Program-made: the position numbers and the translations under genes
The notes under the pieces: generated by a model
Told to the model about the DNA's origin: nothing
What the model saw: the letters and a program-made list of their open reading frames with translations, nothing else
Database searches by the model: none
Source of the DNA: Oligoflexia bacterium
GTDB lineage: Bacteria > Bdellovibrionota_C > UBA2361 > JBGSMV01
Assembly (NCBI GenBank): GCA_019694515.1
Contig: JAIBBU010000011.1
Span: 1 to 64,000 of the forward strand
Direction of reading: 5' to 3'
DNA length: 64,000 bases
Shown: one piece after another, positions 15,372-23,305 of the stretch
Layout of the letters: every line of letters begins with the position of its first letter
How positions within the stretch are numbered: position 1 is the first letter of the stretch

Positions 15372-16397
15372 ATGCAGACTCCCTCTAAGAATATTCTGAA
15401 GGTCGCGCGTACGCTATTTGCGGAGGCGGAGGAGATCTCTTGTTTTGTTGACAGCTTGGCCAAAGATCAGCGCGAGCATGTTGCTGTGCTTTGGACCAAA
15501 GATCGCCCACAAACTGCGCCGTTCCCCGTCATCCCCCAGTTTGATTTTCAGCCGCAGTTCGTCGACATGGTACCGTGGGAGGCGCGACCGGCGGCTTCAC
15601 CCTTGCATGAGGCGGGTTCTTTTTATGTTTTGGATCCTTCCTCTGTTTTCTGCGCTTCCGCGCTTTCTTCGATTGCGCCCAATACTGGGCCGATCCTGGA
15701 TCTCTGTGCTGCTCCGGGAGGGAAGTCGATCGCAGCTTGGGCGCAGCTTCATCCGCAGCTATTGGTAGCAAATGAGGTGATAGGAAAGCGGCTGCCTGCA
15801 TTGATATCCAATCTCCGCCGCTTACTGATTGCCCCCGTGATCGTGTCCTCCTCTGACAGCAGCTGGTTTGCAGCGGAGTTTCGCAAGTCGTTCGCCTTGG
15901 TAGTGTGCGATGTCCCTTGCTCCGGGCAGAGTCTGCTTGCCCGCGGGCAGGGAAATGCCGGCGCATTCCATCCAACCACAATTAATTCCAACAGCCGTCG
16001 GCAGCGGCGGATAGTAGCAAATGCTGCACAAGCGGTCGCGCCGGGGGGCTATCTGCTCTATTCAACCTGCACTTTTTCACCTGCAGAGAACGAAGAGATT
16101 GTCCAATGGTTGATGCGGAAATTTCCCCAATTTGAAGCGTGTGCAGTGGCGATGCTAGAGCCTTACCGCTCGCGATTGAGTGCTGCTCCCTGCTATCGTC
16201 TGTATCCGCACCAACGCAAAGGCGCGGGGGGATTCGTATGTCTAATGAGAAACTGCGAGAGTGGCGACGCGGCGCCCCTCGAAATCTCTCTAATTCGGCC
16301 GTACTTTCAGGCCGGGGTCGATCTGCCTCAGTCTGAAGCCCGGGCTAGGAAGATCGGTTCGCGCTCAAGCAGAGGCGGGAGCAGGGGAGACGATTGA
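15372..16397 (+). CDS. RsmB/NOP-family RNA (cytosine-5) methyltransferase
   Basis: SAM-dependent enzyme expected to make 5-methylcytosine in rRNA or tRNA. The SAM-binding motif LCAAPGGKS lies at about residues 111-119. The two cysteines of the family are both present: the motif IV cysteine in DVPCSGQ near 180 and the catalytic motif VI cysteine in STCTFSP near 231. The protein is 341 aa, shorter than RsmB because the NusB-like N-terminal domain is absent, so it resembles the RsmF/NSUN branch. The C-terminal end overlaps the convergent pilin-like gene by 70 bases, unusually long for this window. Confidence 0.9.
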   Translation: MQTPSKNILKVARTLFAEAEEISCFVDSLAKDQREHVAVLWTKDRPQTAPFPVIPQFDFQPQFVDMVPWEARPAASPLHEAGSFYVLDPSSVFCASALSSIAPNTGPILDLCAAPGGKSIAAWAQLHPQLLVANEVIGKRLPALISNLRRLLIAPVIVSSSDSSWFAAEFRKSFALVVCDVPCSGQSLLARGQGNAGAFHPTTINSNSRRQRRIVANAAQAVAPGGYLLYSTCTFSPAENEEIVQWLMRKFPQFEACAVAMLEPYRSRLSAAPCYRLYPHQRKGAGGFVCLMRNCESGDAAPLEISLIRPYFQAGVDLPQSEARARKIGSRSSRGGSRGDD

Positions 16398-17107
16398 GTG
16401 AGGAGCTGAGTCGGGAGCGCAGTTTGGCGTCTCGCAATCACCTTTAGGGCGCTATCGGCGACGGTGTCGATGCGCACTTGTCCGTAAAGTGAGATCAGGC
16501 TGATGCGGGGTACAGGCATCTCTGTTCCCTTGAGCTCGGAGATCTCGATATCTCCGTCAGCGATTAAAATTGTATCTGCGCTAACGACTAAGGATTTAAT
16601 TGCAGCTGCGCCGATTACTAATAGTCGCGGGCTAGCGATGGTTAGGCGTTCCGCCAACATATTGCCATTAATGATCTGTTCACCCGCTAAGGTTAAGTTT
16701 GCGAATTTGCATTGGCGCGTGCTCCTGGAAAGTAAGGGTGTAGGAGTGGTCGATTCGCCGCAGATCCAAGGGAAAATCCCCGGCATTGAAAGATCGAAAG
16801 CCGGAAATGCTCCACCCAGGTTGTGCTGGTTTAGGATGGGTGCATCCAGGTTAGCGGAACTCTTCGGATAAAGGCATAAAGCGTATTGAGATAGGTGCGT
16901 CAGCGGGCATGGCTCGACTGTTGTTAATGCTGCAGAGTTTTCGATGGCGCTTTGAATCGCATTATTGTTTGCGCTCAATTGAGTTAGCGCAGACTGCCAT
17001 CCACCGACGACCCAGTTAGAGCGTTGCCAACAAAGCAGCACTAAAACACTCCACACCAGGAGTATCGGCGCACAAACAAGCAGGATCGAACCGCGCATTT
17101 TTTTCAT
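16328..17107 (-). CDS. Pilin-like tip protein candidate (PilX/GspK-like position)
   Basis: Last gene of the pseudopilin operon, 259 aa. The N-terminus reads MKKMRGSILLV: a short basic leader, a glycine that would precede prepilin peptidase cleavage, and a hydrophobic helix of about 20 residues. Position +5 is not glutamate, as in GspK/PilX-type tip pseudopilins. The rest is a beta-rich soluble domain rich in serine and alanine with several cysteines. It begins two bases after the preceding stop. The identification rests on the N-terminus and gene order; the soluble domain is not recognised. The 3' end overlaps the methyltransferase gene. Confidence 0.65.
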   Translation of the reverse strand: MKKMRGSILLVCAPILLVWSVLVLLCWQRSNWVVGGWQSALTQLSANNNAIQSAIENSAALTTVEPCPLTHLSQYALCLYPKSSANLDAPILNQHNLGGAFPAFDLSMPGIFPWICGESTTPTPLLSRSTRQCKFANLTLAGEQIINGNMLAERLTIASPRLLVIGAAAIKSLVVSADTILIADGDIEISELKGTEMPVPRISLISLYGQVRIDTVADSALKVIARRQTALPTQLLTQSSPLLPPLLEREPIFLARASD

Positions 17108-17109
17108 CT

Positions 17110-17976
17110 TTAAGGTCGATTTAGCAAAAAATTGATGGGGGCCGCTTTAGCCCAATGTGAGCAAAGCTTAGCTACTACCGAAAATCCCCTGGGATCGGCC
17201 AGCTCCATGGTCAAGCGCTGGATGCCGTTTATATTCTGGTCTGCGAATGCGAGCGTTGCGCTGCGAGGGAGCGTCAGTAGTGGTTGGTTCTCAAGGTTTC
17301 TTGTGCCGCTGTGCCCTAGGTATCTGAGTGTCCCGGCGCGATCGAGGTAGATAGTATAAATGCGCGCAAGGGGCAGTAGTATTAAGGGCGGGTCGATTGT
17401 TACGGCAGGCAGTGAAGCTAGCATGCCCTGGACTGGACGTAGGACCAGGCTAAAGCAGCGTCCGCGCCGTATTATCTCCTTGCTTCCGGGAAGCGCATAT
17501 TCGCTATTTGTGGTTAATCCAACTCCAAGATAGTTACGGGGAAGTCGGAGCGGAGCGCCGGTAGCGGAATAACGACGGCAAACCCTGAATTTTGTCTTAT
17601 TGTTGAAAGACTCGGATTTCACAATATCCAGACCGGCGGCGGTCATCGCGCTAAATGAGGTTAGAGCACTGGACTTTGAATTTGGGGTCCGTCGACCCTT
17701 CATAATTGCATTTGGCGAGCCATCTGCCAGCCGAATCATGCCAGCGGGGTGTATCCGCCAACGCGTCTGTAAGGGATGCTCATCAAACTCTCTAATGGCA
17801 TCACTCGCCACCGAAGTCAGAATTATTGCGCCGTGCGCCAGCTGCTGCTGATTTCTCAGTTGGCTCCCCATGTCTGCGGTTGTGACAAATATCCCAATTA
17901 GCAGCGTCATCATGCCGACTACACCGGCACATACTAGTAACGCCTCCAGCAGCGCAAAACCTTTAGGGGATCTCAT
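17110..17976 (-). CDS. Minor pseudopilin (PilW/GspJ-like)
   Basis: A type IV pilin-like protein of 288 aa. The class III signal is textbook: MRSPKG then FALLEALLV, with glutamate at +5 and a hydrophobic helix continuing to about residue 35 before a helical spine ending in QLRNQQQ. The following soluble domain of about 230 residues is the large PilW/GspJ size. ATG 17976 is chosen because upstream starts put extra residues before the leader and deepen the overlap with the previous gene, which ends at 17963. Minor pseudopilins prime assembly of pili, secretion pseudopili or DNA uptake fibres. Confidence 0.78.
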   Translation of the reverse strand: MRSPKGFALLEALLVCAGVVGMMTLLIGIFVTTADMGSQLRNQQQLAHGAIILTSVASDAIREFDEHPLQTRWRIHPAGMIRLADGSPNAIMKGRRTPNSKSSALTSFSAMTAAGLDIVKSESFNNKTKFRVCRRYSATGAPLRLPRNYLGVGLTTNSEYALPGSKEIIRRGRCFSLVLRPVQGMLASLPAVTIDPPLILLPLARIYTIYLDRAGTLRYLGHSGTRNLENQPLLTLPRSATLAFADQNINGIQRLTMELADPRGFSVVAKLCSHWAKAAPINFLLNRP

Positions 17977-18265
17977 TTGTGGCAAGCTCCAGGTAGGCAC
18001 CATGAATTTGAGGGCCTCGTGGGGGGCTGGTTTGGCACCTCAAGAATTGTCTTGTCCGGCTAAAGTGCTCGCTTCTGCAAATCGTGAACTGGCCCGCTTC
18101 TCTCTGAAAAGCCTCGGTTAGGAGCGGCTTTGCGAATTGCTGTGAGAAACGCAGCGCCGTGGCAGCGCGATATTGTATCGTTGCGAGAGCTGCCGCTATT
18201 AATGCGCTGAGGCCGATCGCCATCAGTAGATCAACGAACATCGCGCCGCGCTCTGAGCTTAACAT
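17963..18265 (-). CDS. Small minor pseudopilin (PilV/GspI-like)
   Basis: A 100-aa pilin-like protein. The leader MLSSERG is followed by AMFVDLLMAIGLSALIAAALA, a hydrophobic helix with aspartate in place of the usual glutamate at +5. The small soluble part contains cysteines (TICRS and LRCQT) that could form a disulfide. It overlaps the genes on both sides, by 7 bases upstream and 14 downstream. Small size and second place in the operon match PilV/GspI, but the sequence is too diverged to be certain. Confidence 0.68.
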   Translation of the reverse strand: MLSSERGAMFVDLLMAIGLSALIAAALATIQYRAATALRFSQQFAKPLLTEAFQREAGQFTICRSEHFSRTRQFLRCQTSPPRGPQIHGAYLELATNEIP

Positions 18266-18690
18266 TGCAGTTTAACTCGACCTCGAAGTGAAATGGTTAA
18301 TGTGCAGCTGGAGGTTCCAGTGCTCAGCATAAGAGTGGCGGGCGATGCCGACTGTCCCTGATAAAAGACAATTTCACCAGCTCTTCGGTTGGTGAACGAA
18401 AGTCTTAGTCCCTTGGCCAACGGAACGGCCCTAAGAATCTTGCCGTTTCTGGAGAAGCTGATGCTGTCTGATTGCGCAGAGATCTCGATGCGGCTGTTCT
18501 CTAGTCTGGAGAGCAGATAAGCTCGTTCTATCTCAAGCTGTAATTTTTCTGCAGCGAGGCGGAGAAATGTTCGTTCCCTAAGCTGCGATAGCCGTGGCAC
18601 GGTGAGCAGCACGAGAGCTGCGCTAATCAGCAGTGCGCCGATGAGCTCTAGTAATGAGGAACCGCGCAGACGGCCAGCGTTTTCTTTCAC
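18259..18690 (-). CDS. GspH/FimT-like minor pseudopilin
   Basis: First gene of the pseudopilin operon, 143 aa. The N-terminus MKENAGRLRG is followed by SSLLELIGALLISAALVLL, giving glycine at -1 and glutamate at +5, then the spine helix RLSQLRERTFLRLAAEKLQLEIERAY. The FimT/GspH signature region (AEKLQLEIERAYLLSRLENSRIEI and a C-terminal GRVKLQC strand) is present. In Gram-negatives this protein initiates the minor pilin complex. The operon contains no ATPase, platform or peptidase gene, so assembly factors must lie elsewhere in the genome. Confidence 0.82.
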   Translation of the reverse strand: MKENAGRLRGSSLLELIGALLISAALVLLTVPRLSQLRERTFLRLAAEKLQLEIERAYLLSRLENSRIEISAQSDSISFSRNGKILRAVPLAKGLRLSFTNRRAGEIVFYQGQSASPATLMLSTGTSSCTLTISLRGRVKLQC

Positions 18691-18985: not shown

Positions 18986-19068
18986 GGGGAAAAACGGTTC
19001 ACTTCGACATAGCTGCTCTCAAACCCAACCCGACCAAGACGGTCGATGTGTGTGTCCCCAAGGGAAAA

Positions 19069-20502
19069 ATGGATCCATCAAGCAATAGTCCTAACGCGCC
19101 TGGCGAGAACCCCAAAGAAACCTCTGTTGCCGCCATTGCTCTAACTATTGGGACTCAGCCAGAAGAGGTGCGGACCGATAGCGCTCCGAAAGTGGACCCA
19201 GAAGCGGTAGAAATGCGTCGTCTAGGCAAGGCCTGGACTAAGAATATCGTCCATCCTATTTCGTTTCAGAGCATTCCTGAATTTTTTTGGCGCGCACCGC
19301 AAAAAGCAGTTGGCTCGATGCTGTGCCTGGAAGCATGTTCGGCTTCGGGGCCCAGCTTGGGGCTGCCTGTAGATTTGCTAGGAGTCGTGGCTCGGCAGGT
19401 CATATTCAATCGATTCTTTCAGATTCCCACCTTAGTATTAGATGTGGATTCATCGGCGTCTCGCTGTCGCCGCGTGCTCACGCGCGAAGAATCGCGGCTG
19501 CTGGAGAAAAGCAATGCGACTTTGATCGATTTTGTTCAGCACGTTTCAGCATATCTAAAATCGGCCGAAAGCCGTATTACGGTTGTTGCTTCTGATACTG
19601 AAAGTTTGGATCAGGAAGCGCACAGTCAAGCCCAAGCGGAAGTCGAGCGAAACCTAAGAGAGAATCCGCAGTTGGTGCTTGCTGATCAGGTAATTAGAGA
19701 ACGCATCGTAAGAATGGAAGCGCTGCGCATACAGTATGGCGCACGGGCTCGCGTCGGCTGGAGCAGTATTAATTCGCGCAAACGACCGGCGGAACTGGAG
19801 CGCACACAGTCGCAATACGCCCAGGCTCACAACGCCGAGCTTTGCGACGGCTACATTGACGCATATTTACAGCAATCATTTCCCGAGCGCTTTGCTTGCG
19901 TTTACGCGCCGCCCGCCGAATGCCTGGAGGTTTCGATGCATGTTTCTCCAATTACTGTGAATCCGATCTATGAACGCGATTCGAGTCGGCCATTCAAGCC
20001 AATGCGGGATGGTGACGGGCGCTTGCTGCATGGGCGCATCCTGTTAGATGACGTTTCATCTTTTGATGCCTTAGTTTATGGCGCTGAGGAAATTGGCAAT
20101 GAGATGGCCGACCCAATCAAGCGCGATCAGAATCGAGCGCGTTACGCACGCTGTATTAACTACCTTTTCGATACCGCCCATCTGGTGCGCGTCGCGATGC
20201 CCGGCCTAAGGACGCCGGTTGACGCAGCCTTAGCCTCGCAATTTAGCTCTGCGGAGCAGCAGTATAGCGATCTTTTTCAGCGCGCCAGAGTCGGCGTTCA
20301 ATCTAGCACGCATTCGCTCGAAGAACTTCGAGTTGAGGTCCAAAGATCCTATCTTAGATTGACCGAGCTGAAGCGGCTTTTGGTGCTACCCCAGCTTGAG
20401 CATTTTGCGCGGATTTTTGCTCCGGATCATGCGCAAAGCTGGGAGGAGCATACTCAGCGTAGATTCCAGTACGAAGAGAGCTCGATCGGGTTGGCAGCCT
20501 AA
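19069..20502 (+). CDS. Unknown 477-aa soluble protein
   Basis: I do not recognise this protein. The first 45 residues are rich in Ser, Pro, Asn and Glu and probably disordered. The centre is a mix of strands and charged helices with an arginine/glutamine-rich helical stretch (about residues 185-270). The C-terminal 120 residues look coiled-coil-like (LEELRVEVQRSYLRLTELKR). No signal peptide or membrane helix is visible. ATG 19069 has an AAGGGA site close by, and is preferred to the GTG at 19048, which has none. A longer N-terminus starting at 18863 through a frameshift is possible. It faces away from the pseudopilin operon. Confidence 0.7.
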   Translation: MDPSSNSPNAPGENPKETSVAAIALTIGTQPEEVRTDSAPKVDPEAVEMRRLGKAWTKNIVHPISFQSIPEFFWRAPQKAVGSMLCLEACSASGPSLGLPVDLLGVVARQVIFNRFFQIPTLVLDVDSSASRCRRVLTREESRLLEKSNATLIDFVQHVSAYLKSAESRITVVASDTESLDQEAHSQAQAEVERNLRENPQLVLADQVIRERIVRMEALRIQYGARARVGWSSINSRKRPAELERTQSQYAQAHNAELCDGYIDAYLQQSFPERFACVYAPPAECLEVSMHVSPITVNPIYERDSSRPFKPMRDGDGRLLHGRILLDDVSSFDALVYGAEEIGNEMADPIKRDQNRARYARCINYLFDTAHLVRVAMPGLRTPVDAALASQFSSAEQQYSDLFQRARVGVQSSTHSLEELRVEVQRSYLRLTELKRLLVLPQLEHFARIFAPDHAQSWEEHTQRRFQYEESSIGLAA

Positions 20503-20516
20503 TCCGGCCGGGCTGA

Positions 20517-21305
20517 TTACTCTTCTAGCAATGAACTGACACGCTGGGGATCAAGATTGCTAGTAACGATCTCCGCCGTTAAGTCTCCTGACCCGAATTT
20601 GGCTTGGAGTTCGTTGACGATATTCTGAGTCAGCTTTTCTGCATCGGCGATATCTTCAGGCCCGCCATCGGCTTGCCGCTGTGCGCTGGCCTCCCGTAAT
20701 GAATCGCTTAACGTGGTTTCGGCCTTGGAGAGCGCGGCCTGAATTCCCGTACTGCCGGTTCGTGAAGCAGAGACGATTGCCTCTAGGGTACTAACCGCGG
20801 TTGTTGCCGCACTTTGGGTGGTCACGGTCACACCCGGATTATTGGTAAGGTATGAGAGCGACGCCGCTTGAATTGAGGTGTCGATTCCCAGCTCTTCGGA
20901 GTCGATATTGAAGCCTGCACCGGTTAGGGTGTTTTGCCCATTATAGGTAGCCCCATTATATATGCGGTTGATCTCGGATTCGATCGAATTGATTTCCGTG
21001 GCATAACTAGCCTGTGCTTTGCGATTCGCTGTATCTTCTGCTTCTTCCGCATACGCAAGTTGAGTCTCTCGCAGAGCCGTAATTTGGGCCGCCGCCTGCG
21101 CTGCAACGTCATAAAAGCTTTTGGCGTTTGATGCTAACAATAAGGGGCTACTTTGCTGTGGCTTGTCCGTAGCGACACTCGTCGTATCGGTCACTGGCTG
21201 GTTAATCGAAGCTGCCAGCTTGGTTCGCTCCGTATCCGGCGCATTTATGCGCAGGGAGCGACTGTCCGTGGTGAGTCCAATGCTTTTATCTACTCGAAAA
21301 TTCAT
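20517..21305 (-). CDS. Flagellin-like protein lacking the N-terminal assembly helix
   Basis: A 262-aa relative of flagellin. The D1-type segment is recognisable: TEINSIESEINRIYNGATYN then GQNTLTG in the middle, and a second helix region TAVSTLEAIVSASRTG. The C-terminus (NLDPQRVSSLLEE) resembles the flagellin end but finishes with two extra acidic residues. The N-terminal D0 helix is missing: only a short LRIN element near residue 18 recalls the flagellin N-terminus. ATG 21305 is chosen because the GTG at 21323 lies inside a hairpin. It follows flagellin by 61 bases in the same direction. It may be a filament accessory, a secreted decoy or a decaying paralogue. Confidence 0.72.
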   Translation of the reverse strand: MNFRVDKSIGLTTDSRSLRINAPDTERTKLAASINQPVTDTTSVATDKPQQSSPLLLASNAKSFYDVAAQAAAQITALRETQLAYAEEAEDTANRKAQASYATEINSIESEINRIYNGATYNGQNTLTGAGFNIDSEELGIDTSIQAASLSYLTNNPGVTVTTQSAATTAVSTLEAIVSASRTGSTGIQAALSKAETTLSDSLREASAQRQADGGPEDIADAEKLTQNIVNELQAKFGSGDLTAEIVTSNLDPQRVSSLLEE

Positions 21306-21322
21306 AAAGGTGGTGCTAAGCA

Positions 21323-21356
21323 CTGCCTACGCCGAGCTGATACTCGGCGCAGGCAG
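21323..21356 (-). other. 14-bp hairpin between flagellin and flagellin-like genes
   Basis: The arms 21323-21336 and 21343-21356 pair over 14 positions around a 6-base loop. The single imperfect pair is A-C on the plus strand but G-U in the minus-strand RNA, so the structure fits the flagellin transcript. It starts 11 bases after the flagellin stop and ends just before the next start. There is no U-tract, so it probably lowers or tunes expression of the second gene, or protects the flagellin mRNA end. Confidence 0.6.
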
Positions 21357-21366
21357 CTTAAACAAG

Positions 21367-22176: not shown

Positions 22177-22825
22177 TTTACAACCTCACTGTCATATAGG
22201 AATGCCGTCCGAGATTTTGCAGAAAGCGGACAGACGTTCCTGTTCGACTCTTCGTATGCCGCTGTGACGCGGCGGAGCAGAAGAGCCTCCTAAACGCTCC
22301 ATGTTCTAAGTGAAGAAATCGGCTTTCTACAAAAACCCTTGATGAACTGGCGCTAAAACCCCCACAAACAGCTAACCGCGCGAAATCTCAGAGACAAAGA
22401 GGGGAATGACAGGATAAGAAGTGATTTAGACCTGTGTCTAAGAGTGTTTGGCGCTTGGTTTTAAATATGTTCTAAGCAAACTGTTGAATGATTTAAGCTG
22501 GTCAGCGACCCTTGCAATGCGGCGATTGCACCTGACTGCGCGCCGCTGCTTCTCATCAAAAAATGATTTCATCGTATTGGGCCACGTTGCGGCAGCAGCT
22601 GACTGCAACCTTAAAATCCTCTCTTTCTTGCAAGTTTTTTGATCGCACGATCAAGTGACAGCGGGCCGCGAAGTTTGATTCTGGATCACCGAAGTGTGCG
22701 ACCTTATAGGGAATTTATACATTTCCGGTCGCATGCCCGCCGCGCTTTTTGCCGCAGATAATCGCACTTAGTCTCTGAGACCTCGTCACCACTATAGAAT
22801 ATTCGTGCGGGGGCCCGCTGCTCTG
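22177..22825. other. Long intergenic region upstream of flagellin
   Basis: This 649-base gap holds the flagellin promoter and a structured leader, including GCCGC/GCGGC nested in CTCTTC/GAAGAG around 22249-22286. Further out is a perfect dyad TTGATCG-CA-CGATCAA at 22639-22654, next to a T-run on the wrong side for a terminator. A 64-codon frame at 22448-22642 has no ribosome binding site and is not called. The rest shows nothing I can assign. Confidence 0.55.
22316..22342 (-). promoter_or_regulatory. Sigma-28 (FliA) type promoter of flagellin
   Basis: On the minus strand TCAAGGGT (22335-22342) and GCCGATTT (22316-22323) are separated by exactly 11 bases. The sigma-28 consensus is TAAAGTTT-N11-GCCGATAA, so the -10 element matches in its first six bases and the spacing is right; the -35 is weaker. 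Transcription would start around 22309, giving a leader of about 130 bases before the flagellin ATG. Confidence 0.7.
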
Positions 22826-23305
22826 TTAACTCTTCTCGGCGAGGCCTAGCATCTGGGCGAATTTGTCGCGGAGATAGATCTCGAAGCCGTCCTGGACATT
22901 GTCGGCGGCTATAGTTTCGTCGACGATCTCGAGAATCATATTGCGTTGCTTGAGATCCAAGTTGTCGCGAAGCAGTTCGACGAACTTCGAAGGGCCGCGT
23001 AGGTTGGTCATCTCCAGTTTGGCTTGGTTAATCAGTGCCGTAACCTCTGTGCGGGGAGTTCCAAACATGCGGTACATTCCGCCTACGATGCATTCAAACT
23101 CCCGCTGATCAAAATGTTCATCGCAAGAGGCTAGGTCCACTAACATTACCGCCAATGCCAGCTCCAGATCGCTCTTCTTCACTCCGGCGCGCTTTAGCTT
23201 GCCCTTGAAGCACGGATCGATACCCAAAGCCTTGCTGTTTTTGGAGAACATGTTGCGGATCGTGTCGTTTAGGATCGTATTGGACTGAAATGTATTGTCA
23301 CTCAC
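22826..23305 (-). CDS. TerB-like protein
   Basis: A 159-aa helical protein of the TerB-like family (COG4103/TerB fold). The family's metal-binding helix region is seen in AVMLVDLASCDEHFDQREFE (about residues 52-71), followed by LINQAKLEM and a second helical half with LRDNLDLKQRNMILEIVDET. TerB-type proteins are linked to tellurite and stress responses and are often associated with membrane or signalling complexes; the precise role of standalone copies is unknown. A GAGAACGAG-type purine-rich site precedes the ATG. It is divergent from the 128-aa receiver-like gene. Confidence 0.75.
   Translation of the reverse strand: MSDNTFQSNTILNDTIRNMFSKNSKALGIDPCFKGKLKRAGVKKSDLELALAVMLVDLASCDEHFDQREFECIVGGMYRMFGTPRTEVTALINQAKLEMTNLRGPSKFVELLRDNLDLKQRNMILEIVDETIAADNVQDGFEIYLRDKFAQMLGLAEKS

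Follow-up and report, generated by a model that had tools for sequence, protein, structure and literature searches.

The window, by which we mean the whole 64,000-nucleotide stretch of DNA that was analysed, carries a run of reverse-strand genes in which a TerB-domain protein is followed by a divergent flagellin (the locus flagellin), by a flagellin-derived protein that we call the partner, and by a group of genes resembling those of minor pilins (Table 1). The pilin calls derive from relatives, which show GFxxxE motifs and FimT/GspH-type matches; the counterparts in the window are weak and silent in Pfam. The frame, strand and extent originally proposed for the partner were confirmed and the gene is real; an alternative GTG start lies at position 21323. 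No second copy of the partner was found in the window genome. The inserted forward-strand gene that separates partner from pilin genes is present only in the window genome among those examined.

Table 1. Features of the partner locus in the window, with the mini-flagellins of related genomes
Feature	Position	Strand	Remark
Partner, 262-aa flagellin-derived protein without N-terminal D0 arm	20517..21305	(-)	
Locus flagellin, 269 aa	21367..22176	(-)	divergent clade
16-bp stem-loop between flagellin and partner	21322..21357	(-)	-36.6 kcal/mol, z -4.7
14-nt leader ACAGTGAGGTTGTA	22179..22192	(-)	immediately before locus flagellin start codon
TerB-domain protein	22826..23305	(-)	conserved upstream neighbour
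484-aa protein of no known family	19048..20502	(+)	between partner and pilin genes
FimT/GspH-like minor pilin	18259..18690	(-)	conserved downstream neighbour; weak family scores, clearer in relatives
PilV-like minor pilin candidate	17963..18265	(-)	position and N-terminal hydrophobic segment only; no Pfam match
PilW-like minor pilin	17110..18003	(-)	conserved in locus; no Pfam match
PilX-like protein	16328..17107	(-)	conserved in loci of some relatives
Mini-flagellins	L163 1517-1966; L164 1517-1915; L173 1517-1915; L166 1045-1497 (-); L171 569-1015 (-)		

The partner falls below both flagellin cut-offs in Pfam: its Flagellin_N (PF00669) match, residues 65-129 against profile positions 71-136 of 139, scored 26.0 bits, just under the threshold of 26.6 bits, and Flagellin_C (PF00700) was absent at E<=1. 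An NCBIfam scan, which took in the models of FlgL (HAP3), a flagellin-like D1 relative at the base of the filament, returned 0 families. In profile-profile comparison (hhalign), however, positions 50-248 of the partner family aligned over 196 columns with residues 64-269 of the locus flagellin, as far as the last LL (probability 98.7, E 2.4e-16), and a search of PDB sequences with the partner family profile matched flagellins only, many of the solved ones among them, in two stretches corresponding to ND1 and to CD1 through the C-terminus (best E 1.2e-12). On these alignments the partner and flagellin share descent across D1 and the C-terminus, in agreement with the original prediction that both had been retained, and the sequence comparison supports a D1-like fold without D0. 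AlphaFold models of the partner (pLDDT 41.5 from a two-row and 37.4 from a four-row alignment) were too poor to use and were left out of all inferences.

The likeness begins only midway along the first D1 helix, at flagellin residue 64; the first 60 or so flagellin residues, comprising the D0 arm and the start of ND1a, are unmatched. All eight homologues described below are likewise armless, so the predicted loss of the D0 arm is borne out and the homologues are not intact flagellins. The SGxRIN motif is missing too, a loose SGxR pattern surviving in two of the eight and LAQ in one. The NGxxSDxQR turn of D1 and SRIxDxDxA, both filament-packing motifs, are absent from every partner, and of the C-terminal signatures SRIxDxDxA and LAQAN what remains is weak. 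The arm had been described as replaced, a part of the claim that probably does not stand. The 55-residue N-terminus is colinear with flagellin N-termini, with a resemblance score (15.5) reached by 1 of 200 column shuffles, or by 4 of 599 when the first three columns were held fixed; because this resemblance slightly exceeds that of the shuffles, the segment is, by what is a weak test, probably a shortened and decayed arm rather than a foreign replacement. Across the partners these first 55 or so residues are polar (S/T/N/Q 24-43%) and carry no Sec-like hydrophobic stretch, the most hydrophobic 12-residue mean ranging from 0.06 to 1.37. The C-terminal tail is altered and still ends in LL. The two acidic residues that follow it, once taken as a feature, are particular to this genome: ends among the relatives include LL, LLQ, LLSG, LLD, LLG, FLAD and IFAQGE, and ordinary flagellins also end in LLRD or LLGG.

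Homologues were sought in 58 genomes, the order being represented by 29. Every one of the six f4 genomes has an orthologue of the partner, with ORFs of 247-259 codons, and another of 284 aa comes from the single genome of family f13 (G015), where it was found by profile search before being added to the profile. Together with the window genome, the only member of f1, this makes eight genomes in three families; profile search found no partner in the remaining 21 of the 29. The eight score 255-293 bits with a profile into which all of them were built, and so match by construction, the next match being a full-length flagellin at 54 bits. They form one clade (SH-aLRT 99) with 19-50% identity among orthologues, and across the eight genomes the partner mostly lies directly behind a flagellin. 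With the window partner as query, GTDB contigs gave no match, and the protein of a relative recovered only its own record (JAUIBK010000009.1). We found no literature report of a natural family of truncated, D0-less flagellin paralogues.

G044, a genome from a different order of the class, encodes a second, distant armless relative of flagellin (L117 1384-2367, reverse strand). This protein of 327 aa has a flagellin-like D1 and C-terminus and a polar N-terminus unlike that of flagellin; its score is 44.6 bits for the partner profile and 11.6 for the flagellin profile, and no flagellin lies beside it on its 6.3-kb contig.

The rapid divergence of the partners and their loss of motifs would suit a decaying, functionless duplicate, or an artefact of assembly or frameshift, but we consider this highly improbable. 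A full-length open frame of 247-284 codons is maintained in all eight genomes and three families, and in almost all comparisons the third codon position is the most variable (0.42, 0.35 and 0.66 for the three positions between G012 and G021). A six-frame translation of 20501-21366 yielded no D0-like peptide, which argues against a frameshift concealing a normal N-terminus, and no broken copies were seen in close relatives. The artefact reading in particular was ruled out by the empty six-frame search, the sharing of the defect by eight genomes, and the codon-position pattern.

The flagellin upstream is itself unusual. It is at most 48% identical to the other flagellins of the window genome, at least eight in number, and with its counterparts in related loci it forms a clade of its own (SH-aLRT 95) that excludes every canonical flagellin of the order. 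Branches in this clade are much longer than canonical ones, pointing to fast evolution and leaving the deeper joins of the flagellin tree unsure. The original prediction placed the partner behind a real flagellin: a flagellin gene is indeed there, whereas its reading as a normal filament flagellin is unsupported for a member of so divergent and fast-evolving a clade. Five of the eight partners clearly prefer locus over canonical flagellin models, two score near-equally and one slightly prefers the canonical, and in a search of the class with the partner profile the top-scoring full-length flagellins were locus flagellins. Since most partners score better against these proteins, which also lead the full-length matches, we infer that a tandem duplication of the locus flagellin gave rise to the partner.

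In G017 (L104 3086-3913, reverse strand) the flagellin position is occupied by a protein with a coiled-coil-like N-terminus and only the C-terminal tail of flagellin; its PF00700 match (E 0.0024) is below the cut-off, and the flagellin N-terminus is lost. Flagellin-like matches are very numerous in some genomes (59 in G003, 42 in G019, 33 in G015 and 31 in G021), many of them in ORFs of 600-660 aa with a large middle insert, some of which give two matches per gene.

The gene order TerB - flagellin - partner - FimT - PilW - PilX recurs in f1, f4 and f13, and in f5 and f11 the TerB - flagellin - FimT - PilW locus is found without the partner. This synteny across five families, and the adjoining of TerB and FimT without a flagellin in G009 and G013, could indicate that the flagellin and partner serve as accessories to the type IV pilus or to TerB, as coiled-coil partners of a minor-pilin complex with no role in flagellar export. 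We think this unlikely: in G003 the partner has no linkage to the pilin genes, it and the TerB-flagellin locus being on different contigs, and in G014 it lies about 5 kb from them; it has no Sec-like export signal; and long-term neighbourhood need not imply joint function.

In six relatives the partner is separated from the preceding gene by 6-16 nt or overlaps it by 4 nt, and in most of them the gaps are short enough for coupled translation. The corresponding gap in the window genome is 61 nt and contains a stem-loop, which occurs only in this genome's pair, lacks a T-run and is not repeated elsewhere in the window.

The locus flagellin is also marked by the 14-nt leader that precedes its start codon. 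In the form ACARTGAGGTTGTR this is near-invariant, with small deviations in some, in nine genomes of five families, before locus flagellins only about 34-57% identical to that of the window (further occurrences are at L011, L013, L014, L015, L041, L042, L067 and L122). It is single-copy in the whole window genome and was not seen among the canonical flagellins examined, which have other, varied ribosome sites. The leader contains a Shine-Dalgarno-like GAGGT, and on a modest reading of the sequence it may be an unusually conserved ribosome site. Conserved RNA structure was unsupported (a weak 5-bp hairpin from alifold, single-sequence z mostly near -1), Rfam gave nothing of note in the leader region, and no convincing sigma-28 or sigma-54 signal was found upstream of the locus flagellins; sigma-54-like boxes were in some excess upstream of canonical flagellins only.

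In several f11 genomes the leader precedes mini-flagellins of 132-150 aa, which are shorter C-terminal derivatives with a FabH-like synthase gene and an NAD-glutamate dehydrogenase gene as neighbours. In hhalign their last 53 or so residues align with the C-terminus of flagellin (E 1.5e-5, probability 79.7).

Filament growth requires both D0 arms, as established for Salmonella FliC, and since the N-terminal one is missing we infer that the partner cannot polymerise as flagellin does. Our leading reading, to which we give a probability of roughly 0.38, is that the partner acts in the cytoplasm as a pseudo-flagellin, engaging either FliS or the locus flagellin. Each functional step in it is conjectured from what was observed of homology, arm loss, conservation, gene layout, and the presence of FliS and FlhA. 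After tandem duplication of the locus flagellin, the copy would have shed its N-terminal assembly arm, made up of the D0 helix and SGxRIN spoke. The helical hairpin of D1, its long C-terminal helix and the altered LL-ending tail would have been retained. The product would stay soluble, cytoplasmic and non-polymerising; its D1 bundle and tail would bind either FliS or, on the locus flagellin, the D1 face; and it might thereby hold, compete for or meter flagellin export, in the way that HP1076 of Helicobacter pylori acts with FliS in vitro.

Engagement of FliS is suggested because the partner retains the regions to which FliS binds in flagellin, namely D1 and the C-terminal tail (PMC7248283; PMC5466977), because HP1076 offers a precedent, and because both FliS and FlhA are encoded in every partner genome (FliS in 25 of the 29 genomes of the order, FlhA in all 29). 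Binding is not assured, since SRIxDxDxA and LAQAN, which belong to the FliS-bound segment of ordinary flagellins, are gone or weak. HP1076, a FliS-binding co-chaperone (PDB 3K1H, 6LEA), is D1-like without D0, as the partner would be, and competes with flagellin for FliS (PMC7248283). Its own role is an unclear precedent, however, because deletion of hp1076 in H. pylori gave no motility phenotype (PMC7248283). The two proteins also differ: HP1076 has 171 residues against 262 in the partner, is membrane-associated, and is found only in H. pylori and species related to it; it was not among the PDB sequence matches of the partner family at E<=0.1, nor was there such a match in Pfam. Our best guess is that the partner may work like HP1076 while being unrelated to it in sequence. 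A chaperone-like or modulator relative of flagellin, as first proposed, would fit all of our findings.

The known flagellin export signal comprises residues 26-47 of Salmonella FliC, and the partner lacks the conserved SGxRIN region that overlaps it. The polar, disordered N-terminus of the partner would nevertheless be compatible with a type III export signal as well, which counts against a cytoplasmic location. The protein might then leave the cell through the flagellar or another type III gate and act outside, for example in a biofilm matrix, as do flagellin homologues secreted in an FlhA-dependent manner without joining the filament (PMC6692518; PMC5466977). Several FHIPEP-family export gates per genome, and the position of the gene beside minor pilins, another surface system, are in keeping with such a role. 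The paralogues in question are nonetheless unlike the partner: Campylobacter FlaC has a D0-D1 core (PMC5466977), whereas the D0 arm is missing in all eight partners, and Vibrio FlaE and FlaF are flagellin-sized, with no D0 loss described in the available portion of their report (PMC6692518). We regard a secreted, FlaC-like role as the chief alternative to our leading reading, if a somewhat unlikely one. Most of the 29 genomes have three gates of the FHIPEP family, one FlhA-like (~850 bits), one of ~700 aa (~500-600 bits) and one of ~630 aa whose match is split in two, which suggests several type III systems.

A role on the filament itself is harder to accommodate. The D1 helices are kept and the pairing with a flagellin in one locus is stable, so the partner might cap, end or decorate a filament of locus flagellin through D1 alone, as a minor or tip component. 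D0 arms line the filament core, however, into which a subunit without them should not fit, and the NGxxSDxQR and SRIxDxDxA motifs are lost throughout. The partner is moreover kept in G017, where its neighbour has lost its N-terminus, and in G003, where it is unlinked, which implies that it has no need of a filament with an intact neighbouring flagellin. We judge such a component quite unlikely, and these two genomes agree better with a pseudo-flagellin that engages FliS.

The order holds a series of flagellin derivatives: the full-length divergent flagellin, the armless partner, the coiled coil with a flagellin tail in G017, and the mini-flagellins of some f11 genomes, the first and last sharing the near-invariant leader ACARTGAGGTTGT. 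One could speculate, on long odds, that these have lost assembly parts in turn to form a pseudo-flagellin control circuit that senses export through FliS and FlhA and is linked to the minor-pilin locus of the type IV pilus.

Flagellin homologues that act outside the filament are already known, and the sequence-related ones compared here keep D0-D1 as far as the available portions of their reports describe them; the D0-less HP1076 had been recognised through structure. A conserved lineage that descended from flagellin by loss of an arm, and that has kept its pairing with a flagellin, would illustrate how filament subunits can turn into regulators or chaperones, and would provide a clean natural test of which parts of flagellin are needed by FliS, by FlhA and by neighbouring subunits.
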